Shown piece by piece: positions 1 through 54,308 of a stretch of 64,000 bases of DNA. The DNA comes from Taxawa tesnikishii (nom. ined.) (lineage: Eukaryota; Ascomycota; Dothideomycetes; Dothideales): positions 806,001-870,000 of the forward strand of contig JAPDRO010000004.1 in NCBI GenBank assembly GCA_030247885.1, read 5' to 3'. Within the stretch, counting starts at the first letter, position 1. Each line of letters opens with the position of its first letter. Under the pieces are notes generated by a model that was not told where the DNA came from, ran no database searches, and saw only the letters and a program-made list of their open reading frames with translations. The position numbers and the translations under genes are program-made.

Positions 1-111
1 CAGCGGGATCCTTCCTTCCGCCAAGCAGAACGTGATGATTCGGAGCCTGTCAGACTTCTCGCGACACCCTCCCAGGCGGACCGACCGAAGCCAGACATCC
101 GGATGGGTTGA
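1..111 (+). CDS. possible 3' end of a gene cut by the window edge
   Basis: The first forward frame is open from base 1 to a TGA at 109-111. It would encode a charged, proline-containing tail of 36 residues beginning QRDPSFRQAER. Nothing in it is recognisable. It is listed because a C-terminal tail of an upstream gene would look like this, but a chance open frame of this length is quite possible. Confidence 0.15.
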   Translation, partial: QRDPSFRQAERDDSEPVRLLATPSQADRPKPDIRMG

Positions 112-973
112 GATCATCACCACCTTGCCAAAAGGCAAAGCACACGGCATCACTCTTAGGCACCGGAGATGTTGATCATCAGCCAGGTTGAGGTTCTGTG
201 GCTGATTTAAGGAAATCAGACTGGGTCGTTTACTATAGAAATGATTCTATGAAGTAACTGGTCACGGTTGTCAGTAGGTGCTTCCAACAATTGGGGGGCC
301 TGGCGTGAAAACTTACAGTCGACTGAAGAAGAAAGAAGAAGGGGAGGGAGGAAGCGCGCAGTTTTGTTGTTCCAGTCTGCGCACGGGCCACCGCGGCGAG
401 TGGCAGAATCCTGCAGCCGTAGAACAACCGGCCGGTCGATGGAAGGAAGGCTGCGCTCCACTCTGTGCCGCTTGCTGGAGAGCCCTGCAGACGTTCATCA
501 CTCTTCAACAAGACCCTAAGACCCTTGATTTCCCTTCACCAGATGTTTCCCACTCTATACCGGAACGCTGCACCTACCACAGCAGCTATGCTGCCAAGTG
601 CACCGATGCGGTACGCCATCAGTGATTGATCGACCGACAGTGGCAAGCGCAAGCGAAGCCCAGTTCTGCCAAGTTTGCTTGACCAAAGCCAAGTTTCTGC
701 CCGGATTGACGAAGGCCAAGCAAACGCGCAAACAGGAAAGTGGAAAGCACACTCACATGTATAGCCATATATAACGGGTGAGCGCCGCCGTGTGAACCAA
801 AGTAGGCAAACGCATTCGTGGTAGTGACCATCCGGCCCTGCAAGTCTTGTAGGCGCTTGTCTCTTGCTTCGTCTCTTTGCTCATCGTCTCGACAACAACA
901 CTTCGCGCTCTCTTCCTTTGGGTCTGTTCTCAGTATACCACCGCTGTAGCATACCTCCACAGACTCGGACAGA
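112..973. other. intergenic, upstream of the PAP2 gene
   Basis: No gene is supported here. Short open frames exist on both strands but have no family resemblance. A pyrimidine-rich stretch with TCTC/CTTCC just before 974 fits the leader of the next gene. Confidence 0.5.
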
Positions 974-16380: not shown

Positions 16381-17320
16381 ATGGCCCCTCAAGCAGTCGA
16401 GACCTCCCGCCTTGATGGCAAGGTCGCCCTCGTCACCGGTTCCGGTAAGCACTCACTGCAATCACTTGCCCCGTCACCATAGCAATGTCTCCTAACAAAG
16501 TCTCCTCCAGGCCGTGGTATCGGTGCCTCCATGGCCACTGAGCTCGCCCGCCGCGGTGCCAAGGTCGTTGTCAACTACGCCAACTCGGCCGAGGCCGCCC
16601 AGAAGATCGTCGACGAGATCAAGTCCAACGGTGGCGATGCCATCGCCATCAAGGCCAACGTCGGCGACGTCTCCCAGACCATCAAGCTCTTCGAGCAGGC
16701 CGTTGAGCACTACGGCCAGCTCGACATCGTCTGCTCCAACTCCGGCGTCGTCTCCTTCGGTCACTTGAAGGACGTCACCGAGGAGGAGTTCGACCGCGTC
16801 TTCAACATCAACACCCGTGGCCAGTTCTTCGTCGCCCGCGAGGCCTACAAGCACCTCTCCGTCGGCGGCCGCATCATCCTGATGGGCTCCATCACCGGCC
16901 AGGCCAAGGGTGTTCCAAAGCACACCGTCTACTCCGGCTCCAAGGGTGCCATCGAGACCTTCGTCCGCTGCATGGCCATCGACTGCGGCGACAAGAAGAT
17001 CACCGTCAACGCCGTTGCCCCAGGTGGCATCAAGACCGACATGTACCACGCCGTCTGCAAGGAGTACATCCCAGGCGGTGAGAAGATGACCAACGACCAG
17101 GTCGACGAGGTTCGTATCTCCCCTTCCCTTTCTACCTCTACCTCCAAAAAAAAAAAACAGCATGACTAACAATCACTCACAGTACGCCGCCACTTGGTCC
17201 CCAATGAACCGCGTCGGTCAGCCAATCGACATTGCCCGCGTCGTCTGCTTCCTCGCCTCCCAGGACGGCGAGTGGGTCAACGGCAAGGTCATCGGCATTG
17301 ACGGTGCCGCCTGCATGTAA
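16381..17320 (+). CDS. BRN1: 1,3,8-trihydroxynaphthalene reductase (DHN-melanin synthesis)
   Basis: This is an NADPH-dependent short-chain dehydrogenase that reduces trihydroxynaphthalene (and often tetrahydroxynaphthalene) in the DHN-melanin pathway, the step blocked by tricyclazole. Introns at 16445-16510 and 17110-17182 give 266 residues. TGSGRGIG at 19-26 binds the cofactor, the catalytic set is Ser148 (MGSITG), Tyr162 and Lys166 (YSGSK), and NSG stands at 98-100. Near-invariant stretches such as [17 protein letters not shown] and [15 protein letters not shown] match the Brn1/Thr1/Arp2 group very closely. The C-terminus ends ACM, as in trihydroxy- rather than tetrahydroxynaphthalene reductases. 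The frame is intact. No polyketide synthase or scytalone dehydratase is in this window; the nearest gene is a Zn2Cys6 regulator, not the two-finger Cmr1 regulator. Confidence 0.95.
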
Positions 17321-18500
17321 ATGCCCTCGTCTTGCATGCTTCTTCTCTTGTAGTCAATGGGGTTCTCGGTGGGCGACGTGGACGAAAAAACCGGAGTTGT
17401 TGCTGTTGTTGCATGGGACTGTGAATATCATCATATCAAAGCGATCGGCGCTGCTTGTATGGGAAGGGTCGGTGGGGGGGGGAATCATTCATCTAAGATA
17501 AAACGGAAATGGATCTTTTATATTATTTTTTTCTATGAAAACCCACCACGCTTTTTTTCCCTTTCTTTGTTTCTTTGTTTCTTTCTTTCCTTCTTCTTTG
17601 GGTTTTGACAGTGCGCATCGCTTCTTGTTCGTGACATGCCTGCTCTGCTATCCAACCGTCTAGATCACTCCTGGAGCGAGTTCGAGATGGCTGCGCCACC
17701 CGCACAAGCCGAGACGAACCAGGCACTGCCCTCTTTCGCTGGACAGACGGCAGACGTGTACCAGCAACAGTATTCCCTTGACGATGAGCCCAAAGCATCG
17801 ACACCCCGCCGACGAGGCCGTAGGAAAAGAGGCAGCACGTGCGCAAATCCCTGCATACCAGAACCCGACCGCGTTTTTCGAAACCGCGAACGCGCTTTTT
17901 CGTTTTCGGGGGCGAGTATCGAATCCCGAAAACGGGAAGGAGTTTTTTTTTTTGTTTCCACACGCGTAGTAGCTCTTTCCGGTCCGAGCTGACGAGGGGC
18001 GGGGTGAATGCTGGTGTGCCATCGGAGCATGTTGCGTACACGATACTATTCGCAGGCCATCAACCTCTGTTAGCGGTCCTTCGTCGGTTGGTCACACAAG
18101 CCGCAAGGTAGGTGGAGGGGTTGCTCTGCTGGAATGTCTCCTTTTTTTCACATTGTGTACGAGGAGAGTAGCGATTCTGTGTCATTCACGGCGTAGTGCA
18201 TTGATCGGTTAACGCCTTCCCCAGTACGTACAGTTGAACGTCCAAAGTTGAATGGGAACCACCAAGGAGTATCTCACAACCAGCAGGATGGAGGGGAGTG
18301 ATCAACTATAGAACAAAAAAACGTTCAACATCTTGGATTCCCGCATGATCACCCACTGCAGTACTGACAAGACGGTCGACCGGTTAAGTGCAGGAGAGCG
18401 GACGGGATCCTCTGTTCTCAGCCGCCTATGGTCGAACGTGACGACAACGTCGATCCAATAAACTTAGGTAAATTCAAACGAGAAACTCGCTCTTGGCTTC
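17321..18500. other. intergenic between the melanin reductase and the Zn2Cys6 regulator
   Basis: Convergent 3' ends face each other here. T-rich and TTTC-repeat tracts at 17520-17600 fit a 3' UTR. No gene is supported, though open frames occur on both strands. Confidence 0.45.
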
Positions 18501-27783: not shown

Positions 27784-30572
27784 ATGGCTTCCTCGCGCAT
27801 TTTCATCAGGGGCTTGCCGCCCACTATGAACGACGATGACTTCAAGAAACACTTCGGCGCAAAGCTTCCCATCACGGATTCGAAGTTGTTCCCGCAGCGT
27901 AGAATTGGTTATATCGGCTACAAAACGCCAGAAGATGCCGCAAAGGCCGTTAAGTACTTCAATCGAACGTTCATTCGAATGTCTAGGATTGGAGTCGAGA
28001 TCGCCAGACCGGTAAGCGGAGGACATCTGTTGGTCCGCCACAACATCCTACTTACATTCGGCGCAGATACAAGACACAGCACCTACAAAACGTCTTCCAG
28101 CTCAGAGGGGCCAGGGGAAAAATGATGTCAAGTCGCAGGCCGACGGTGCGAAGAGTACGGTGGTTGATGGTCCAAACCCACTCAAGAGAAAGCGCGAAGT
28201 TCCGGACCCAGCAACACAGGACCCCAAGCTTCAGGAATTCCTTCAGGTGATGCAGGCGCCGTCAAAGATGAAGGGCTTGAACAGCGAAGCCCTCCCAAGT
28301 CTGGCAGAGGAGCAACAAGCCGGCATCAACCCCCGCCAGAGCTTGTCGCAGACAGTGACTCTGAATACGAGAACATCGTCAAGAAGAGCAAGCGGTCGAA
28401 GCAACAACAGGCCCCAGCCGCTGCCCCTCATAACGACAGTGCCGATCAGGACATGGAAATGCGGGACGGTGCGCCACCAGACACCTCAGGAGTGCAGAAC
28501 GAGATGCAGCAAGCTAACGAGGTCGACGGTACCGAGACGAAAAACACCGCCATTTCCGATATGGACTGGCTACGATCGCGTACCACCAGACTGCTTGGTC
28601 TTGTTGAAGAAGACGAGGAGGAAAGAGTCGAAGCAGTGCCTGAACCGGAATCGTCCCCGGAAGCCCCTGAGCCTATGAGAGGAGGCAACGACACAATTTC
28701 CGCCGAAGATGCTGACGGTGATGCTCCATCGCCTGAGGATGCTGAAGATGATGTCAACGACACCGAGAAGGCAGTCCGCACAAGCCGGAGGCTTTACTTG
28801 CGAAACCTACCGTACAATGTGACCGAAGACGACTTGCGAAGCCAATTTGTCTCTTACGGCGCGTTATCTGAGGTGCGTACTTTTTTCCTTGTGCAACATA
28901 CGCAAAAAGATGAACACCTGATAGGGACAGCTTATGCTTTGCATGTGATGCTACCTCAGGAAGAGTATTTTAGTAGATGCTTCTCGAGTCTGAAGTTTTC
29001 ATGGTTTTCGCTATTTATCAATCCGCTCAAGTCAGCTTTCGGATTGCTAACAACGATCAGGTGCATGTACCGATTGACCCAAAAACCGGCTCTACGAAGG
29101 GGTTTGCCTATCTCCAGTTCGATGAAGAGGATCCTGCTGTCACTGCATGGCGAGAAATGGACGGTAAGATATTCCAAGGCCGCCTCTTACATGTTTTGCC
29201 CGCAGCGGCCAAGCGGGAGACCCAGCTTGACGATTATGCGCTTTCCAAGTTACCACTCAAGAAACAGCAACAGATAAAGCGCAAACGAGAGGCTGCGTCT
29301 TCAACATTCAACTGGAACGCTCTCTACATGAACGCCGATGCCGTCATGTCCTCGGTCGCTGATCGTTTAGGCGTGTCAAAGTCTGAACTCCTGGATCCAA
29401 CATCCGCAGATGCTGCGGTGAAACAAGCGCACGCTGAGACTCATATTATCCAGGAAACGAAAGCTTACTTTAAAGATAACGGTGTTGATCTAGACGCTTT
29501 CAAGAGCAAAGAGCGCGGTGACACTGCAATTCTCGTGAAGAACTTCCCGTACGATTCCAAGGATACTGAACTCAGGAGGATGTTCGAGGAACATGGCAAA
29601 CTGAAGAGGTTCTTGATGCCTCCCACCGGAACCATTGCAGTTGTTGAATACTACAATGCGCCCGAGGCAAGAGCTGCTTTTGCTTCGTTGGCTTATCGCA
29701 AGGTCAAGAACTCTGTACTCTTCCTGGAAAAGGCGCCCAGGGCTCTCTTCACGGCCGAACCCACATCTGTCGACGCAATCGGCCGATCAACCACATCTAT
29801 TGCAAAGGATGTGAAACCATCAACCACGGATCTTTTACAGACCGATACTTTTGACACGTCTCAGCCCGATGTTGGTACCGCGACACTGTTCGTGCGCAAC
29901 CTGAACTTTTCGACAACAACAGATAAACTGATGGAAACGTTCCGTCCGCTCGACGGCTTCATGTCGGCTCGGGTGAAGACAAAGACTGATGCGAAGAAGC
30001 CTGGACAGGTACTCAGCATGGGTTTCGGGTTCTTGGAATTCCGTTCCAAAGCCCAAGCTCAGGCTGCACTCTCCGCTATGGATGGCTACACACTCGATGG
30101 TCACAAGCTGCAACTCAGGGCTTCGCACAAAGCTGCTGACGCCGCAGAAGAACGTCGCAGGGAAGATAAAGCCAAGAAGATGGCCGCGAGAGGAACAAAA
30201 GTCATTATCAAGAACTTGCCATTCGAAGCAACCAAGAAGGATGTGCGGGCTCTCTTTGGTGCCTACGGACAGTTGCGTTCAGTACGTGTACCCAGGAAAT
30301 TTGACAGAGGAGCACGTGGTTTCGCTTTCGCCGATTTCACCACGTCGAAAGAAGCCGAGAGCGCCATGGACGCCCTCAAAGACACGCATTTGCTCGGGAG
30401 AAGATTGGTGCTCGATTTCGCCGCCGAAGATCCCGAGGATGCCGAAGCGGAGATTGAAAAGATGCAAAAGAAGGTCGGATCGCAGATCAACAAGGTCGCT
30501 CTTCAGAAGCTCACTGGAGCCGGTCGCAAGAAGTTCAACGCATACGGCAACGAGGAGGGCGACGAAGCATGA
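27784..30572 (+). CDS. MRD1: MRD1, multiple RNA-binding domain protein of the SSU processome
   Basis: Mrd1 is an essential nucleolar protein with five RRMs that binds pre-rRNA near U3 and helps early 18S processing. Introns are at 28012-28066 and 28873-29060; the join gives 848 residues. RRM1 starts SSRIFIRGLPP at residue 3. RRM2 has RRLYLRNLPYNVTEDDL; RRM3, TAILVKNFPYDSKDTEL; RRM4, TLFVRNLNFSTTTDKL; RRM5, VIIKNLPFEATKKDV. Between RRM2 and RRM3 is FNWNALYMNADAVMSSVADR, typical of Mrd1. A one-base deficit at C5 28330-28334 shifts the acidic linker after RRM1; an added C restores PPPELVADSDSEYEN. The second intron, at 188 nt, is over three times the usual size here and may host a small RNA. Confidence 0.95.
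28903..28999 (+). ncRNA. possible intronic C/D-type snoRNA in MRD1 intron 2
   Basis: Inside the long MRD1 intron, AAGATGA at 28907-28913 matches the box C consensus RUGAUGA at six of seven positions. CTGA at 28990-28993 fits box D. A C'-like TGTGATGC lies between them. Flanks CAAAA and GTTTT could form a short terminal stem. The span of about 95 nt fits the class. Ribosome-biogenesis genes commonly host snoRNAs. I could not identify a guide match to rRNA, so this is only a candidate. Confidence 0.22.
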
Positions 30573-31299
30573 GCGTCTTGGCAACTTTCCAGTAAGTTCA
30601 GTCGAGGGCACCACCCCTTGCTTTACCAAGACATCCCTCCTGGCCACCCTGCCCTTGGAACATCATATTAGGGATTGTTGCCTATTGGGCATATTCGAGT
30701 CGTACCTGTTCGAAAGATGGACAATATTTAATAATTCCGTGGAGAGAAAACTTCCATGTCCTTTACCCATCATTGTAGGTTACCTGGGAGACAGAGAGCA
30801 TGCCTTTGCGTGACCATGTCCCTCCGCATTCCTCCCTTATATGAGCGAGATTAGCCCACCATCAGCGTACTGCTTCTGGAACACGGCTTCTACATCATTG
30901 GTGTCGCTTCCGGCTGCTCAACGTCACCTTTGAAACCCTTGCTCGGGGTGAAATTAGCATTGCCGGGAACCACCTCTATGGGGCAAAGAGCACCACAACG
31001 ACCTTCTGTTCAACAGGCGTGTCACCTGTGCCCTCGTGCACCCTAGAAGGTCTACCGAGATTGGCCCCTTGATCGGAGCATAGCAACCATCTCGCCCTGC
31101 ACGGGGCTCTTCCATAGTCTTATAACCTTCGATCAGTATCAATCGTATTCGCTCATGCCTTTCGTCACTCCTTTATTGTCGCCCTCCATTCTCTGAGCCC
31201 TAAAAGTCGTTCCTTCAGTCCCAACTTTCTACGTTCCTTAGCCACCTCAGCATTCTCGGGACCACATACAGTATTAGTTTAGCACACCAATCCTTAGTC
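30573..31299. other. intergenic between MRD1 and the abaA-like gene
   Basis: 3' flank of MRD1 and promoter of the TEA-domain gene. No further gene or repeat was recognised. Confidence 0.5.
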
Positions 31300-33714
31300 A
31301 TGATGGAAGTACTTCAGCCCACTCCCATTCTTCGATCGAATGCCCCATCTTGGACGGAGTATGACGATAAGGCAGCTGCTCTAAGGATCTTGCAGGAGCA
31401 CTCTGGTAATAGGCAGCACAGCTATGTTCACTCATCGATCATTGCAAAGACAGCGCCGTCCTCCTACTACAACAAGAACGGTTACCCATATGTAAATGCG
31501 AAGCAGGTACACCAGTCTTCTCACCGACACAAGAGTGGCTACGCCACAATCCGAGGCTACAGTCTGAGGGACGAACGGCGATTCGAACGAAAGGCTGGGG
31601 ACCTTTATTACCGGTTCTGTGCGTCGGACGGCTACACAAAGTACCGCCAACGTCAGCCCAAGGACAAGAAGAGCCAAGACCAAAAATGGCCCGACAATCT
31701 GGAAATAGCGTTCTTCAGAGGTATGTACCTCGTGTTGCTGACGCTCGAATGTGTTGCTTAATCTTCAAAAGCGCTCGTCAAATGGAAACCCATGGGCCGA
31801 AAGAAATACCAATGGAAACACAAATTGATGGGCAGAAACGAGCTCATCGCCGACGAGATTGAACGCCTGACCGGGGTCAAACGAACGCGAAAACAGGTGT
31901 CCAGTCACATTCAAGTCCTCAAGCCTTTCGTCGAAGATGATCCCATAAGTAAGTCGCCGACACCATGAATGGGCGAACCCACTGACGTGAGGGCAGTAAT
32001 GAGCTACCTTTCGGTCAACGATACGGGAGGTGCGGAGCCTTACGCCTACAGATCGACCAACCGACGCAGCAAGTCCTCCCATCCCGTCTCCTTCCAGATC
32101 GAACCTCCCGTCCAGAGCGACACCATCGAACCGCACCGCTTCCAGATGCTGCTCCAGAACAAACACGAAGACGCATTCCACGTTTACAGCCAGTCCTCCA
32201 CCAGATCACAGCAGGAAGACCTGTACTTCAACGGCTTCGACCGTTTCTGCCAGGAGTACCAAGACCTCGCCCACGTGCTCAGCGAACGGCCTCTGGACGG
32301 CGGCATGATCGCAATGGAAACATCTCTGTCCATCCTTTCGCCCAATCGGGTCCCAAAAGACTCCTCGCTCGGCATACAGTGGATCTTCCGCAGCCAAGCG
32401 CCGACGACGAGAAGATTGAAGTGCATCACTACCTTCTACGAGCACGGGAAATGCCGCCCAGACGACCCGTTCACGTCCGCCAACACCGATGTCTCAGTGC
32501 AGAATCTGGACAGCCAAGGGCTCGTCGAATACCAAGTCCCATTTCGCAGCCAGTTCTGGGCCACATTCTTGCATCGTTTGGGCGGTGAACTGCAGCAGGC
32601 CGAAGCCCTCGAATCTCAACCGCTCGAGCAGCACGAAAACGAGTTCTCCCGTGCGCAGATGCTCAAGTTCATGCGCAGCGGCGTCGAACAGAGCTTGCAA
32701 AATCTCGTCGCTATCTCGGAGATCATCGTTTGCAACCACGATGGTCAGGAGGAAAAGTCCATCTTGACAATCCACTGGCGCTTCAGAAAAGCCGAGGATG
32801 GTCAGCCTGGAGAGACGACGTGGAGACGGCTCTTCGTCTCCAACACCAACACCCCTACCGCCGTGCAGACCTCGCAATCTGACATTGCTAAGGCGGAGCC
32901 GGTGTACGATCCGAGCCTCTTCGACTTTGGCGGCCCGGTAGAAATCCAGCCACCCCAGGCACAACCGCCGACGCTGCAGAGTCCCATCCATTTCGAGGAC
33001 CCCACTCATGCTGCCGTCTCTCCCGCGCCGTGGACCGTCAGCATCCCCATCCTGACAGATAACGGGATGGGCGAAACCGAATATCCGGCTCTCCCATCCG
33101 CTGGCAAGGATTTCACCGGCGGCCATATCAGCATCTCGTACGATGCCGGCGCGGCAATCGATTCCTTCGACAGCACGCAGACGGAGTTGGACTTTGACAT
33201 CGACGCCGCCGACCTCGCTACCCCTGAGCTCGCTGCCGCCAACGGTTTCTCGCAGCAGGAGTACAGTCAGGCACAAGAGTATGGTCAGGCGCAGGAGTAC
33301 AGCCAGACGCACGACTACAGCCAGACACGAGAGTACCACCCGCAGACCTGCGATGTCGTCGGCGTCGGATTCGCGTCCGGAGCTGTCTTCGACCCCGCCG
33401 CGTACGGAGCGCACGTCTCGGGCGCGGAGGAGCAAGCGATGCTCGCCGCACACCACGACCTCGACGACGTGGATATCTTCCCCGCTGCGAGGTACGATGT
33501 GGCACAGACGGCCACGAGCGGTCTTGATGGATTTGCGGTCTACGCGCCCCATTACGCACGTGCGCAACAGGCGTATGCGGGCGCGAGCATGGAGGGGTTG
33601 GAAGTCAAGCAGGAGGAAGTGAGTCGGGGTGCAGTCTTTGCGGCGGATTGGAGCTTTGTACTTGCGGGAGTGTCAAGTTTGGATAGACGGTTGCGTGGAT
33701 GGGGAAGCGGATGA
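31300..33714 (+). CDS. abaA: TEA/ATTS-domain transcription factor, AbaA-like
   Basis: AbaA controls the middle phase of conidiophore development in Aspergillus and binds CATTCY. Introns 31721-31771 and 31949-31996 are removed; the protein is 771 residues, near AbaA's length. The TEA domain runs from about residue 130 to 200. It reads [20 protein letters not shown], then [20 protein letters not shown], then [20 protein letters not shown], so both DNA-contact helices are present. A C-terminal half with [13 protein letters not shown] and WRFRKAEDG follows. Around residues 605-640 there is a degenerate six-residue repeat of the form [18 protein letters not shown]. Start 31300 is one of two adjacent ATGs (31300 or 31303). 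The frame is intact. In non-conidiating relatives the family may have other roles. Confidence 0.9.
33257..33345 (+). repeat. in-frame Gln/Tyr hexapeptide repeat in the abaA-like gene
   Basis: Five degenerate 18-nt units encode [24 protein letters not shown] and REYHPQ. Units differ at the DNA level, so this is an aged coding repeat rather than a fresh slippage tract. Confidence 0.8.
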
Positions 33715-34643
33715 AGCACAGGGGCTGGGGGGGATGTTTAGTGGATGATGATTAATGGTCGATGTTTGATGCATGCATGAAACGATAATGACACTGCGTC
33801 TGTGAAAGCTCCTTTATTAGGTTTGTTGAAGATGATCTTTACGGATCTATCTGCAGCTAGTTCGCAAGACTCCCCATCGGGCTGTCGCTGCTCGAGTGCT
33901 AGAGACTCTGGTTGTTTCCATTTGGATCCTCGAAGAGCACTGTCTCCTCCCTTTTACACGATGGTGCAGTTCGTTTTGCCTATCGGTAACCTGAGCGGGT
34001 CCTCGAAGCTCAGATGTTGCCCTGGTCTAGGATCAGACATGCTCAACGGTAATCAACCTTTACTGTTTGCTTGTGATAGCATCATCTGATCGTCTGTTTG
34101 TTCGTTTCTTTCGTTGCTGCTGTTAGTCGATGGTTCGGGTCGACGACCTTGGTCAGTAAACTGTCTAACGGATTTGGCTAACGAATTTGGTTGGAGCTTC
34201 AAGTGATTGCAGGGCTGATGGACTTCGAGGCCACTTCAGAATCCTTTGAACATCCGTGACACATTCAGCATCCCTTCGAGACAGACCTGTAGAGAGCGAA
34301 AACAGGTCCGATACTTTCAACATGTGGGTTCTTTGTCCCCGGCGCACAATACTAGGCGCTACGGCGATCAAGATTGAAAGAGAAAGACAATGTACAAGTC
34401 CGCTTCTTTCACGTCACAGGTATCGAACAAGAGTGCATACAAGGCAGCATACCACCACTCGATGCTTGATATTATTCTCAGTCGCCCCTCCAACCTTTGA
34501 AGTACTACGGAACCCGTCGTTCTTGGCTCCCATCCTTCTCAAGGAAATATCAACTCTACCACATCACGAGTCTTCTCAAGCCGACAATCGAACAAATACA
34601 CACACGAACAAACACACACACAAAAAGCAAACCGAGTTCAAAA
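33715..34643. other. intergenic with the leader of the repeat-peptide gene
   Basis: No gene is supported from 33715 to 34643. The last 90 nt, rich in CACACA and lacking G, followed by TTCAAAAATGG, look like a typical fungal 5' leader for the small gene that begins at 34644. Confidence 0.5.
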
Positions 34644-34856
34644 ATGGGCTTCTACGTCGACAACTTCGGTATCCCCCACTGCGCCTTGCAAAAGTTCTGG
34701 GTCGACAACTTTGGCATTCCGCACTGCAGTCTGCAGAAGTTTTGGGTCGACAACTTCGGTATCCCACATTGCGCTTTGCAGATGCATATCGTTCAAGGCG
34801 TCGTCGTTGGGCCCGCGGCCGCTTGTACCAGAGAGGAAACACAAGAACTTCGATAG
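34644..34856 (+). CDS. tandem-repeat peptide precursor, candidate farnesylated (a-factor-type) pheromone precursor
   Basis: A 70-residue open frame has an excellent start context (AAAATGG) after a CA-rich leader. After Met-Gly it consists of three 15-residue repeats at 34650-34694, 34695-34739 and 34740-34784: FYVDNFGIPHCALQK, FWVDNFGIPHCSLQK and FWVDNFGIPHCALQM. A 23-residue tail then ends at TAG. Each unit is an 11-residue peptide ending in Cys, followed by ALQ or SLQ (so Cys-a-a-Gln, a CaaX-like box) and a Lys spacer. Rhodotorucin A precursors (RHA genes) have the same plan: an 11-residue peptide ending in Cys, a Thr-Val-Ala/Ser spacer and Lys, in tandem. Most differences between copies are synonymous, so the peptide appears to be under selection. 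There is no signal peptide, as in a-factor-type precursors. The non-CaaX C-terminal tail is unexpected. The pheromone role is inference. Confidence 0.65.
   Translation: MGFYVDNFGIPHCALQKFWVDNFGIPHCSLQKFWVDNFGIPHCALQMHIVQGVVVGPAAACTREETQELR
34650..34784 (+). repeat. three 45-bp coding tandem repeats
   Basis: Copies 1 and 2 differ in eight codons, six of them synonymously. Copies 2 and 3 differ in nine codons, seven synonymously. VDNFGIPHC is identical in all three. Confidence 0.95.
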
Positions 34857-35153
34857 AGAGACAGTAGAGATCTCAACTCCAACCATGGATGAGTGCGCTC
34901 GGCGGAAGTAGGCACTGCTCCTCACGGTACGGGAAACTGCCGGGCTGAGTCTTGATCTCAGGAGATGGAAGCGCGATGGAAGTGATTGGAGATGTGTTTT
35001 TGGTTCGATAAGATTTCGATAGCGACCTAAGGCCTGGGCGCCTACCGCGTCCAGTGGTTTCTTGTGGACAGAATCAGTCCACAGAACGCCTCGCAAAATG
35101 GATCATCTCATTAGTACTATATGGTTATACACAGTTTCCCGCACTGACGCTTC
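34857..35153. other. intergenic
   Basis: 3' flanks of the repeat-peptide gene and the convergent gene. Nothing recognised. Confidence 0.5.
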
Positions 35154-45329: not shown

Positions 45330-48300
45330 TCAGCAAATCACACTCTCTGTTGCAACCACACACTGGGCGCAGTGCGAGCTTACTCGACTCACTCTCTCGA
45401 GCGGATCGCTGATATCCGCCGTAATCAATGCCGGGCTCTCCCCGCTACCAACCACTCCACTCTCGGTGTATCCTCTCATCTCCATCATCGGCCTCTGGAG
45501 CGTCGGGTGCCTGGGCTCATCGTGCTCCAATGACGGCGTCTCTGGAGCACCGGGCGGGAGGAGACGCTGGTCGCGGTTCTTCTCCAAGAGTGCACCACCT
45601 AGGGTTGCGCATTTGAGGATTGTCTGGATGAGCTGGTTAGGCTTCAGGGGTTTAGAGAGGTACTCGTCCATGTGGGCCTGGATGCATTTCTCGCGGTCAC
45701 CAAGCATGGCGTGGGCGGTGAGGGCGATAATGGGGGATCGCGTCAGCTCGTTTTCGTGCTCCCATTCCCTGATCTTACCAGTGGCTTCGAAGCCGCCCAT
45801 GACAGGCATCTGCACGTCCATGAGCACGACGTCGTACCGCTTCTTCTTGATCGCCTCGAAAGCTTCGAGACCATTGTTCGCGACCGTCACCGTGTGGTGG
45901 TGCTTTTGCAGGATCTTGACTGCCAGACGCTGGTTCACCAGGTTGTCCTCGGCGAGGAGGATGTCGAACTTCATGCTTGGATCGGCTGAAGCTGGAGCGG
46001 CACGGCCTTCGAGGGCTGGAATAAGCGCATTACCCAAATCGATCGGCAGGCAGGGTGTGGTCATGTAGCTCGCAATGCCGTCTTCAAGAGCAGACTTGAA
46101 GCTCATCGAGATAACCGGGGCCAGCATCACGATAGGGATGTACTTGAAGTCCTCGAGGTTCCTCAGCGACCGAGCAGTCTCGCTACAATCGACAAGCACA
46201 CAGTCGTAGGCCGGCTTAGAACCGCCCGGCGAAGGGACCTTGTCCATACTGTGCACAACCAGAGGCACAAGATCGAGATCGCGCAAGTGCTGGGCAATTT
46301 CTCCGGAACAACCCGTCTTGCCCTTGTCGATGAAGAGAACTGTGTGCTTGCGGTATTGCTGTAGGTTCTTCTCCAGCACGGACGTGTCAGGGTTGCCGAC
46401 CTTGAACTTGACGGTGAAGAAGAAGCAGCTTCCGTTGCCGAACTCAGACTCAACCCACATCTTACCGTGCATAAGACCGACCAGTCTCCTGGAGATGGAT
46501 AGGCCCAGTCCAGTACCACCAAACCTACGGGTTGTGGAGCCGTCTGCTTGCTGGAACGTGTCGAAGATGAGATCCAGTTTGTTGTGCGGTATGCCGATAC
46601 CCGTGTCGGAAACGGCGAACTTCACCGCATACTCTCCCGCTTCACACTGGTCCTGATCAGCTGCAGAGATGGTGACTCTGACCTCACCCTTCTCTGTGAA
46701 CTTGATGGCATTGCCGACGAGGTTGAGGATGATTTGTCTGAGCCTGAAAGAGTCGCCAACCACGTAATCAGGTACGGAACTGTCCACCTGGTATGCAAGG
46801 TCCAGAGACTTCTCATTAGCCTTGACGGCCAGCGACTTCATGCCATTGAAGACTTGCCCACGCAGGGAGAACGGAATCTCCTCAACGACCATGCGATTTG
46901 CTTCAATCTTGGAAATGTCGAGTATGTCATCGATGATTGTTAGCAAGCTGTTAGCGAGCTGGTGCACCAAGTTCAACATCTCACGCTGGCTTTGGTTGAG
47001 CTCGGTATCCAGTGTCAGCTGTGTCATGCCAATGATGCCGTTCATGGGAGTCCGGATCTCATGACTCATGTTTGCCAGGAACTCCGACTTGGTCTTGTTC
47101 GCAAGTTCGGCAGCCTCTCTTGCGGCCTGGTTCCGCTGGATGCTCTCGCGCAAGTTCGAAACCATCTTGTTGATCTTCTGCTTCAACTCGTTCATCTCTC
47201 CGGAGGCGGAAACGTTGATCATCTTGCTGAAATCGCCTTCGGTTGCTGCATTCGTGATGTCGCCGAATGCGCGGACCTGCGAAGTCAAGTTTTGAGCCAT
47301 GGTGTTGACATCGGAGGTGATCTCCTTCCAGCGTCCGGCAATGCCTTCCACTTCGGCTTGACCGCCCATCTTTCCATCGACACCGACATCGCGTGCGACA
47401 CGCTTGACGGCAAGTGACCAGTCATCAAGACGAGCCACCATGTCGTTGATGGTGTCCTTCAACAGCAAAATCTCTCCCTGAGCGTGAACCTTGATCCGCT
47501 GGGTCATGTCACCTCTGGCGATGGCTTGCGTAACATCGGAGATGTTGCGGACTTGGTTCGTCAGGTTGCTGGCCATGGTGTTGACGTTGTCTGTGAGGTC
47601 CTTCCATTTGCCTTCGACGTTGGCAACCTCTGCCTGCCCACCAAGGGTACCTTCTGTGCCGACCTCTCTAGCGACCTTGCTGACTTCGAAGGCAAAAGCA
47701 TTGAGTCTATCAACCATGGTGTTGATGGTGATCTTCAGGTCCAGAATCTCTCCCTTGACCTCAGCTTCGACCTTCTTGCTGAGATCGCCTCTTGCGACGG
47801 CGGTGGTGACCTCTGCGATTTCACGCACTTGCGTGGTCAAGTTCATGGCCATGCCGTTGACGTTCTCGGTAAGATCCTTCCAGGTTCCTTCCACGCCATG
47901 CACGGTAGCTTGGCCGCCAAGTCTACCCTCTGTACCGACCTCACGAGCAATCTTTGTGACTTCCTGGGCGAATTGGCGAAGTTGGTCAACCATGGAGTTG
48001 ATGGTCGATTTGAGCTCAAGTATCTCGCCCTTGCACTCTGCCCGGACCTTTTGCGTGAGATCGCCCCTAGCAACCGCAGTTGTAACCTCTGCAATATCAC
48101 GGACCTGGGCAGTGAGATTGCTGGCCATAGCGTTGACGTTGACGGTAAGGTCATTCCACATGCCCTGGACGCCCTCGATTTGTGCTTGACCGCCGAGCTT
48201 TCCTTCGGTACCGACGTCGCGGGACACCCTGGTAACTTCGGTAGCAAATGTGCGCAGTTGGTCCACCATGGTGTTGATGGTTTGCTGGAGCTGGAGGATT

Positions 48301-49354
48301 TCTCCTTTCGCAGGTCTCTGAATCTTGCGAGAGAGGTCTCCTTGGGCGACTGCTGTGGTGACAACAGCAATTTCTCTGACCTGGTTGGTCAAATTTTCAG
48401 CCATGATGTTCACTAAATAGAGTCAGTCAACAGAAAATTTGTCCTTGGAGGGAAGCGCAACGTACCATTTTGCGTGAGCTCAGCCCAGATGCCATCCACA
48501 CCAGGCAGAACAGCTTGGCCACCCAGTCTTCCTTCAGTACCGACTTCCTTGGCAAGGTGTGTGACCTGGCTTGCGAATTCCTGTAACTGATCCACCATTT
48601 TGTTGATAGTGCGCTTGAAAGTAGCGATTTCAGGATCCCGCTCTTGAGCACTGATGAGCACCTTCTTGCTAAGATCACCATTTGCGACAGCTGTGATAAT
48701 TCTTCCAATATCGCGCAAGACCTTCTGGTAAGTCGAGTTGATCTGCTGGTTCTTCGACAACTCGCGCTTGAGCGTCTCAACGTCATCCATTGAATTCTCA
48801 ATGCCGCCAAGTGCTTGCTTGGTGGCTTGCTGTTGTTGGCTAAGCTGCACATTGATGTTGTTAATGTACTCCTTTTGAACTTGGATTTGCTCCGTCTGCT
48901 TATCGACGTGTTCCCGTAGACGGGTCAACTCCTCCACACTGAACTCGCGGGGATTCTCCTCCTCATCTGCATCGCCTCGTCTGGCCAGTATGCTGTTGAC
49001 CCAAGACGCGGATCTCTTTCGTAAGGGTAATGTTGTGCCGTTCCTGTTGGCGGATGTTGGAGAGCTGTCAGGTACGAATACCGAGGACAAAGGCTCGTTT
49101 GGGGTAATAGGTAGAGTAGCGTTGGAGCCTGTAGCTTTGGACTCGAGGAACTGTATGCGACCAGCCAATGCAGCTACTTCTTTCTCAAGTGTCCTCTTAG
49201 CGCTGCTGTCCGGCCCTGGCAGGGTGAAGTGGTTTTGCTTGATGCCATTTGCTGCGATGCGGCTGGTGAAGGAATCGTCTTCGAGAGGGTTGAACTGCTT
49301 CCCAAGGTTCGAAAGAACAGCCGCGAGAGCGATGTAAGTCTCTTCGTGCGACAT
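45330..49354 (-). CDS. nik1: group III hybrid histidine kinase (Os-1/Nik1/NikA type)
   Basis: This cytosolic sensor kinase feeds the HOG osmotic-stress pathway and is the target through which phenylpyrrole and dicarboximide fungicides act. One intron at 48413-48465 gives 1323 residues. An N-terminal coiled-coil stretch is followed by six HAMP repeats of about 92 residues, marked by GDLSKKV, GDLSRKI, GDLTQKV, GDLSKKV, GDMTQRI and GDFSKMI. The H box [15 protein letters not shown] has its phospho-accepting His near residue 747. N, G1 and G2 boxes are [21 protein letters not shown] and [14 protein letters not shown]. The receiver has [14 protein letters not shown] with the phospho-Asp, and SKPLKP. 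All catalytic residues seen are intact and the frame is clean. The close HAMP repetition at the protein level is characteristic of group III. Confidence 0.97.
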
Positions 49355-52036: not shown

Positions 52037-54308
52037 ATGGATCAGTCCCGCGAAACCCTAGGACAAGAGGCTTCTGCATGCAGACCAAGCGAGCAGGTCA
52101 CCGAAGTCATGGACGCCGAGCAACCTGCGTCTACGAGCAAGCAAACCAACACTGTGGCTCTTGAGTCATTCCCTGAACACTGGCACTAGGTATTCGAAGA
52201 TCAATCCAGCTCAGCAGGTCCGGCTGATAAAACTTCTACCTCGGGCGCCAGATGCGCTGCTTCGGTGTCAGTCCCATGTCACGGATCTTACACAGCTCGG
52301 GAACACCGAATACATAGCATTGTCGTATACCTGGGACCGTGCAGAAAGCCGAAAAGACATAAAAGAGATTCGGTTTGATAGCCAAGAATTCTGGATCCGC
52401 ACGAACCTTTGGGGATTCCTCATTCAAGCTGAGAGGACCATGCTCGTTCGATGCCTTTACATTGACGCTCTGTGCATCGATCAAACAGATCTACACGAAA
52501 AGGGTCACCAAGTACAATTGATGGCGACGATATACTCTCACGCTTTCGGAGTAGCGGTCTGGCTCGGCCAGGCTGACACGACGGGGTCAGTTCAGGAGGG
52601 GCTTGAGTCGCTCACCTTGAAGGATACATGGGCAGAAACCGATCGATTGAGCACAAGGGAGGAATCACAGGCGATTGAGTTTATTACTTCGCGACCCTAC
52701 TTGAGTACGACTTGGATCGTTCAGGAGGTCATGCTCGCCTCGCGTGTCTCTGTGCTTTATTGCGACTTCGTCTGGCCATGGCCGAAAGTGGCAAGCATCG
52801 CTCCTGAATCGCAGGAGACAATGGCCTTCGGCATCGGTCCTAGCCCCGACGGATCTGATTTCGTCCCTCTCCATCGCATGGACACAGTCCTGAAGGGAAG
52901 ACCCTTCGACCAGATTGCACCTGATTTCACAAGAGTAATGGAGCACAAAGATCGATTAGACAAACGTGTAGCAGCCACAGGATCTGATGTGAAAGCTATG
53001 AGTCTTCTGGATCAACCTGACGTTGAGCCCGAGATGCGAACAATGCCACTGTATCTGGCTCTGAGTGCTTTCTGCGGGCAGAAGTGCACTGACATGCGAG
53101 ACAAACTGTACGGCATGCTTGGCCTCGCTGGAGCAGCAACACGTCAACGGCTGTTACCTGACTACGAGCTCGATTTGCCACAGGTATACGAGATGGCACT
53201 ATATGAGAGTCTCCGATCAATCGATGACCATCTAAGAGACTTTGTGGACAGGCGTCTCCAGACGTATGAGATGATCACCGCGGCTTTGCACGAAACCTTC
53301 CAGCTCTCAGAGGACGTCATTTCTTCGAGTAGGTCTAGGATCTTATCGGAAGCATGTGTACGAGGGCAGGTTGAAGCAAATCTGGCCACTGTACGCTGTC
53401 CTGTCGACACGGGATGTCAAGAGGGAATGACTGTCAACGAGTGTTCGCGGAAGGATGAACACATTGCCAACTGGAAATCGCGCTTTGCGAGCCTTGCGAA
53501 GACCTTTGACGACCAGTATAGAGCATCCTCGATTCCTTTCGATCCCTTTCAGTCCATTGCACAGATCCCGAACCTCGACACGCAAAGTCACAGGATATCA
53601 AATATACAAAGCGGAAGAGGCTTTGACCCACGCTTTGAGTACACTGTTTTTCAATTTAAACCGGTACCAGCATCACATCCAGCTCGAAAACCCCTAGGAG
53701 AAGACCTTTTCGAACGTCTGCGCTTTGTCGAAAGAATTGGCTTAGACAGTCAGACCTCCCGGAATCTGGTTGAAGAAGCCAGCATTACGTACACCTATGA
53801 TGGTTACATTAGCAAGGAAGGTACCAACACAGAATTCGAGATGGCTCTCATAGAGGTGACTGGTCCTTTTGGATTGTACTACGCTACCTCAAAGCTCTTT
53901 CTTCGGGAACCTCTCCCAGGTGAGGAGACGGGATTGAATGGTATTCGGCTGGCAGATGCTTGGCCTGTCAAACACCGGCAGAGATGTAACGGATGTCATG
54001 AGATCATATCCGCCGTACGCTACCATTCTTTGTATGTTTACGGTTGCCTATGCTACCGTTGCGCCCAGAAACCGATGCGACGCAAAGGCTCTACTGGGGA
54101 AATCGAGGTCAAGACATCTGACCATATCGATCAAGCTTCAGATTCGGATGTGGATCTGGTCTTTTATCCGGTCTTCCATCCGGCGGCGATCTCAAGCTGG
54201 ATGGTAACCCCTGAGGATTTTTTGAACCTGAACTTTCGCAGAGTCGGGTATCGGTTCCAGAGCAGCCTTTTGGACGAATGGAACAACGACCCTGACGAGT
54301 CGACATAG
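52037..54308 (+). CDS. HET-domain (heterokaryon incompatibility) protein
   Basis: HET domains are TIR-related cell-death domains used in fungal non-self recognition. Start at 52037 with an intron at 52129-52189 (donor GTCTAC, acceptor CACTAG) gives ...EQPAYSKINPAQQVRLIKLL and 736 residues. HET motifs are EYIALSYTWD near residue 71, LYIDALCIDQTD near 119, AVWLGQADT near 150 and STTWIVQEVMLAS near 202. Residues about 629-660 (RCNGCHEIISAVRYHS, then CLCYRC) look like a degenerate ZZ-type zinc finger, which some HET proteins carry. Because the intron has a weak donor, the first 30 residues are less sure. A broken HET relative lies 1.2 kb downstream on the other strand. Confidence 0.85.

Follow-up and report, generated by a model that had tools for sequence, protein, structure and literature searches.

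The window analysed here is the whole stretch of 64,000 nucleotides, and the short ORF considered in this report (34644–34856) lies near its middle, downstream of a TEA/ATTS-domain transcription factor gene. Other features identified in the window are as follows.

45–262, minus strand: U3 snoRNA
16531–17169, plus strand: short-chain dehydrogenase, closest PDB entry trihydroxynaphthalene reductase (E 3.3e-98)
18320–18439, minus strand: 5S rRNA
28903–28995, plus strand: box C/D snoRNA (Rfam Afu_335, 74.3 bits), within the region of an RRM-domain gene
31204–33714, plus strand: TEA/ATTS-domain transcription factor, upstream neighbour of the ORF (TEA match in 31762–31965, E 3.5e-19)
45330–48404, minus strand: hybrid histidine kinase, matching HAMP five times
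52440–54305, plus strand: HET-domain (heterokaryon incompatibility) gene

The upstream neighbour, which we take to be of AbaA/Tec1 type, consists of three open pieces (31204–31761, 31762–31968 and 31969–33714) that we infer to be exons of one gene; no Pfam family was found in 31204–31758 or 31969–33711, and an 18-nt tandem array (33255–33326) lies inside the last piece. Downstream of the precursor ORF, the minus strand carries ORFs that gave no significant Pfam match and, beyond them, the gene for the TFIIA large subunit. The box C/D snoRNA is probably intron-hosted. The histidine kinase is presumably of group III (Nik1/Os-1 type), and its HAMP repeats appear at the DNA level as a 276-nt repeat (47710–48215). 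Trihydroxynaphthalene reductase we take to be the melanin-pathway enzyme; PDB comparison of three neighbour genes gave fungal-type enzyme and SDA1 matches, with one gene lacking a match at 1e-30, and was not decisive for the class of the host. The HET-domain gene, to judge by the distribution of such genes, fits a Pezizomycotina host.

The ORF itself and its leader are laid out as follows.

34570–34643, plus strand: CA-rich stretch ahead of the start codon that, to judge by its sequence, looks like a 5' UTR of fungal type
34644–34856, plus strand: candidate multi-copy prenyl-peptide precursor ORF, 70 residues, ATG start, TAG stop at 34854–34856
34650–34694, plus strand: copy 1, FYVDNFGIPHC-ALQ-K
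34695–34739, plus strand: copy 2, FWVDNFGIPHC-SLQ-K
34740–34784, plus strand: copy 3, FWVDNFGIPHC-ALQ-M, CALQ codons at 34770–34781
34785–34853, plus strand: 23-residue tail without a CaaX box

The product (MGFYVDNFGIPHCALQKFWVDNFGIPHCSLQKFWVDNFGIPHCALQMHIVQGVVVGPAAACTREETQELR) begins with Met-Gly alone and enters copy 1 at once; its ATG has an A at −3, and no dibasic site occurs in the precursor sequence. The three 45-nt copies, starting at 34650, 34695 and 34740, are ungapped, and TRF describes the array with a period of 45, 2.8 copies and a score of 170. The initial annotation had proposed a three-copy, 15-residue repeat gene, and both this and its 11+3+1 unit plan are borne out, each unit comprising an 11-residue peptide ending in Cys, then ALQ or SLQ and, in copies 1 and 2, Lys. 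Its claim that a signal peptide is absent is likewise upheld, the N-terminus (MGFYVDNFGIPHCALQK) being, as judged by eye, without a hydrophobic signal stretch. Among the 238 ATG ORFs of 50–150 residues in the window, the 70-residue ORF has the strongest internal repeat, with 26 identities over 30 residues in self-overlap at offset 15; next come the ORF lying antisense to it (16) and one with no relation to it (15).

Comparison of the copies with one another bears on whether the repeats are coding. The copies differ from each other at 8–11 of 45 bases and at 2 of 15 residues, which confirms that the peptide has been kept while the DNA has drifted. Our recount agrees with the codon differences given before for neighbouring copies (8 codons between copies 1 and 2, 6 of them synonymous; 9 between copies 2 and 3, 7 of them synonymous), and copies 1 and 3 differ at 7 codons, 5 synonymously. 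Of the 14 columns that vary between copies, 2 are at the first codon position, 3 at the second and 9 at the third (hypergeometric P 0.005). Simulation with an equal number of random base changes, carried out for plus frame 0 only, gave expected residue differences of 7.2 (copies 1/2), 5.5 (1/3) and 6.7 (2/3) against the 2 observed in every pair (P 5e-5, 0.003 and 1.5e-4, respectively, the pairs sharing copies and thus being non-independent). The remaining five frames all have higher raw counts of residue differences, namely 7/6/7, 8/4/7, 6/6/8, 5/3/4 and 8/6/8; the lowest set, 5/3/4, belongs to an antisense frame with a stop in copy 1, and the in-register antisense frame gave 6/6/8 versus 2/2/2 in plus frame 0. 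The NG86 estimate of dS was 1.34 for one copy pair, while the remaining pairs gave no computable value (−1, taken as saturated); dN was 0.085–0.117. A peptide kept so nearly constant while its synonymous sites have moved so far apart shows the pattern of a multi-copy peptide precursor, which a recent duplication or gene conversion would not leave.

Measured against 5,877 coding windows, drawn from the same 16 ORFs that defined the codon table, the repeats rank at the 80th percentile in codon usage, a level that 0.26% of windows read off-frame (in frames +1 and +2 of that strand) attain. The tail, by contrast, ranks at the 11th percentile among 6,229 coding windows, and 59% of off-frame windows equal or exceed it. 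Taken alone, codon log-odds do not separate the strands (sense 0.170 versus antisense 0.198), so that it is the between-copy comparison that tells the sense frame from the antisense frame where log-odds fail. An antisense ATG ORF of 82 residues (34638–34886, minus strand) is open over the repeats and is interpreted as a shadow of the sense frame. Codon usage and the between-copy results together mark the repeats as a conserved coding unit and leave the tail in doubt.

Relatives of the precursor were sought in several collections, and a peptide string suited as a tblastn query is MGFYVDNFGIPHCALQKFWVDNFGIPHCSLQK. In viral contigs, a collection in which fungi are not expected, 3 stretches matched the pattern with the protein query and none was confirmed, and a degenerate DNA pattern for DNFGIPHC had no match. 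In prokaryote genomes, where fungi are not expected either, 45 stretches matched the pattern and 1 was confirmed (L001); it was judged a chance match, lying antisense to a bacterial helix-turn-helix-like ORF with a stop just upstream and sharing only the short PHCSLQKF likeness. The best PDB match of the precursor (a ribonuclease inhibitor, E 0.0074) was partial and meaningless, and tblastn within the window gave no convincing paralogue, the best E besides the ORF and its antisense being 0.72.

The tetrapeptide that begins with the Cys of each 11-residue peptide is CaaX-like: Cys-Ala-Leu-Gln and Cys-Ser-Leu-Gln precede Lys in copies 1 and 2, and CALQ precedes Met in copy 3. A full CXXX screen of yeast farnesyltransferase (FTase) found Gln at X to be a positive pattern in its Ydj1 arm and Leu at a2 to be favourable, and the decision tree derived for the enzyme treats Asp, Glu, Lys or Arg at a2 and Lys, Pro or Arg at X as restrictive (PMC10320760). 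CALQ and CSLQ are free of every restrictive residue of that tree; the boxes, described earlier as favouring farnesylation, fit the yeast rules and are predicted to be accepted, and farnesylation of the precursor Cys would be compatible with them. A C-x-x-X-[K/R] arrangement fitting these rules occurs in 23 (loose definition) or 2 (strict) of the 6,369 cyclic 15-mers from 16 window ORFs, and in 2.2% or 0.1% of shuffles of the repeat unit, figures that are optimistic because the pattern was defined after sight of the sequence. Removal of the aaX residues from a CaaQ box is uncertain, given that the Ras-based arm of the same screen, in which later processing is needed, has Met and not Gln as its positive X residue (PMC10320760), and that yeast Ydj1 carries CASQ and is prenylated without later steps (PMC9231725; PMC9927470).

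The ORF ends in ...QELR and carries no CaaX or CpaX box at its C-terminus. The initial annotation had named the tail and the Met in place of the last Lys as weak points; both are real and more than minor: it is there, with no terminal CaaX, that the defining feature of the family fails. Splicing to a terminal CaaX by a GT-AG intron is ruled out, with 0 of 706 models, and 0 of 181 in a narrower set, giving such an end; the earliest GT past the third CALQ is at 34791, so that any GT-intron model leaves at least Met-His-Ile after it. Two of 837 GC-AG models do give a terminal CaaX: the first stops at the CSLQ of copy 2, the second at the CALQ of copy 3. The latter corresponds to the following hypothetical feature.

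34778–34860, plus strand: hypothetical non-canonical 83-nt intron (GC-AG; alternatively 34782–34864, AT-AG, with an identical product)

Its removal would make the protein end exactly at the third CALQ, followed by a stop, and the gene would then be a three-copy a-factor precursor of canonical form. Fungal introns are commonly of this length, and the non-coding-like tail would fall inside it. Neither the GC nor the AT donor, however, matches the usual consensus, the branch-point motifs CTRAY and YTNAY are absent from 34778–34860, and of 2,000 first-order Markov resamples 6% had an exact CALQ end by chance and 26.7% a CaaX end of some kind. In view of the 6% chance rate and the missing branch motif, we do not claim this intron and regard it as a weak and very improbable rival. 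As it stands, the gene would behave as multi-copy CaaX precursors do where copies 1 and 2 are concerned, but without a terminal CaaX it is not filed as a member of the CaaX pheromone precursor family.

Coding, conserved repeats beside a non-coding-like tail, with the last Lys changed to Met and the terminal CaaX missing, might also mark a decaying or newly altered relic of a pheromone precursor, in which the repeats were selected until recently, the end past the third CALQ has changed and maturation is incomplete; yet the repeats run without a frame break, copies 1 and 2 retain the full unit, and the start context and leader are intact, and we consider such a relic unlikely. Conservation also spans the whole 15-residue unit, beyond its CaaX-like part, which leaves room for another kind of multi-copy peptide precursor (a cytosolic repeat peptide, a metal-binding peptide or a leaderless RiPP) whose Cys-Ala/Ser-Leu-Gln is not prenylated, and the viral contigs and prokaryote genomes yielded no homologue linking the gene to pheromones. 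Against this alternative, also an unlikely one, stand the chance rarity of the C-a-a-X-K layout and the lack of the hallmarks of KEP/ustiloxin-type precursors: neither a signal peptide nor dibasic Kex2 sites are evident in the precursor, and DUF3328 is not among the 25 listed of 26 Pfam families in 107 window ORFs. Kex2-processed repeat proteins are described as having an ER signal peptide and Kex2 sites between the repeats (PMC7329392), and a Kex2-type secreted repeat protein or ustiloxin-type RiPP is disfavoured on the same observations. A spurious ORF, produced by a 45-nt tandem repeat in DNA that is non-coding or codes on the opposite strand, would accord with the open antisense frame and its similar log-odds, but the residue differences between copies point to plus frame 0 over the in-register antisense, and so few off-frame windows reach the CAI of the repeats that we judge it quite improbable.

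We read the gene, with moderate confidence, as a putative multi-copy prenyl-pheromone-like precursor: a cytosolic protein with three 11-residue, Cys-ending peptides that would act like the a-type, h-type and rhodotorucin-type precursors. Cleavage past each Lys and subsequent trimming would expose CALQ or CSLQ, farnesyltransferase would add a lipid to the Cys, the aaX residues would be taken off and the Cys methylated, a Ste6-type transporter would export the lipopeptide, and a Ste3-type receptor of the partner would sense it. Copy 3 may yield nothing, because no Lys follows its CALQ, or it would carry a true C-terminal CaaX if the non-canonical intron excised the tail. Of the rhodotorucin-type pheromone reading put forward initially, the layout, the conservation of the copies and the lack of a signal hold good, whereas the terminal CaaX is missing and the third copy has Met where Lys stands in copies 1 and 2; the pheromone reading is plausible, not proven.

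Against this reading, the ORF matched no Pfam pheromone family and nothing at 1e-4, HTH_psq alone appearing at E 0.011, below the cut-off, and the 25 listed of 26 families in 107 window ORFs (E 1e-4) include none for a receptor, an ABC transporter, a prenyltransferase or MAT, in a scan that covered mainly exons of at least 75 codons. The absence of pheromone-pathway families is weak evidence, given that scope and because in other ascomycetes receptor, transporter, prenyltransferase and MAT genes as a rule lie apart from those for pheromones. Promoter motifs linked to mating show no enrichment and are uninformative: TGAAACA occurs 9 times in the window against 8.59 expected and not at all in the 929-nt stretch 33715–34643, where TGAAAC occurs once (0.32 expected) and CATTCY and TATAWA do not occur (0.81 and 0.35 expected). 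The other two motifs tested, AACAAT (0 in the same stretch, 0.42 expected) and ATTGA (1, 1.48 expected), come from the Verticillium paper (PMC11077750).

The significance of the gene depends in part on its host. Among the open-licence PMC papers listed, no title or abstract beginning reports a Dothideomycete or Eurotiomycete a-factor. Pheromone precursors were sought in Aureobasidium genomes, for which the available part of the account names Ste2 and Ste3 homologues and reports no a-factor (PMC4227064); in one Dothideomycete genome paper no pheromone gene was predicted, and a survey of Dothideomycete ABC proteins describes one Ste6-like gene per genome in all the fungi analysed. The find would gain weight if the host belonged to the Dothideomycetes or Eurotiomycetes, for which the peptide would supply a defined ligand for testing. 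Whatever the host, a precursor with exclusively internal CaaX-like boxes would allow a test of whether such copies are in fact freed and prenylated. A more specific proposal, that this is an a-type pheromone gene from a filamentous ascomycete class without a reported one (e.g. Dothideomycetes or Eurotiomycetes), built as a multi-copy precursor in rhodotorucin style, with CaaQ boxes and with Lys-released internal copies as prenylation substrates rather than a C-terminal CaaX, we put forward as tentative and, on balance, rather doubtful.

The remark in the initial annotation that a multi-copy internal-CaaX precursor would be unusual in a filamentous ascomycete was too strong, since tandem CaaX/CpaX precursors are known from Trichoderma, Huntiella, other Ceratocystidaceae and Verticillium. 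All these multi-copy precedents are Sordariomycetes, a placement that is for some of them a matter of general knowledge. Rhodotorucin A, from a basidiomycete, has a unit of 11+3+1 residues like the candidate, while its terminal unit ends in a CaaX box, unlike that of the candidate, and its peptide sequence differs. Its precursors in Rhodosporidium toruloides share with the candidate the tandem pheromone units and the CaaX-like spacers (PMC3068285; PMC3236058).

The a-factors described from filamentous ascomycetes in the accounts cited here, the multi-copy ones included, end in CaaX or CpaX (PMC10569646; PMC3068285; PMC10182648; PMC13037118; PMC11077750). The putative a-factor of Leotiomycetes, presented as the first outside Sordariomycetes among filamentous ascomycetes (PMC10569646, 2023), resembles the candidate as a short precursor outside that class; it differs in its C-terminal box of CTVM type (CTVM being the most frequent ending), its Ser/Thr-rich N-terminus and, in most cases, a GY motif, with no repeats mentioned in the available text, and in the three species tested for it, expression showed no link to mating type (PMC10569646). 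Precursors with several CaaX-type units are reported from Huntiella (PMC10182648, 2023) and from a survey of Ceratocystidaceae (PMC13037118, 2026), in which a hydrophobic N-terminus and a terminal CaaX/CpaX served as criteria. The a-factors of the survey all end in CaaX/CpaX and have a hydrophobic N-terminus (PMC13037118), and the mature peptides have 7–10 residues (PMC10182648; PMC13037118); the candidate opens directly on copy 1.

Closer in layout is HPP1 of Trichoderma reesei, a three-copy precursor with Fusarium relatives and mating evidence (PMC3068285, 2010), which shares with the candidate the three tandem copies with CaaX-like ends, the lack of a predicted classical signal sequence and a very short precursor. 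Its Kex2 sites are dispensable for fertility, and a rhodotorucin-like maturation has been discussed, the route being left open (PMC3068285). The HPP1 units follow the Hypocreales h-type consensus (LI)GC(TS)VM, the last of them at the extreme C-terminus (PMC3068285), while the candidate has units of the form ..IPHC(A/S)LQ, with CALQ or CSLQ boxes, and a tail of 23 residues. Verticillium dahliae Ppg2, with 66 residues, five undecapeptide repeats and a C-terminal CaaX (PMC11077750, 2024), is likened to the candidate by description and not by unit sequence: both have undecapeptide repeats, internal CaaX-like motifs, no signal peptide and a short length, and the C-terminal CaaX of Ppg2 has no counterpart in the candidate. 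Lys and Asn are the putative processing residues of Ppg2, and a synthetic single-repeat VdPpg2 peptide elicited chemotropic growth in both Verticillium mating types (PMC11077750).
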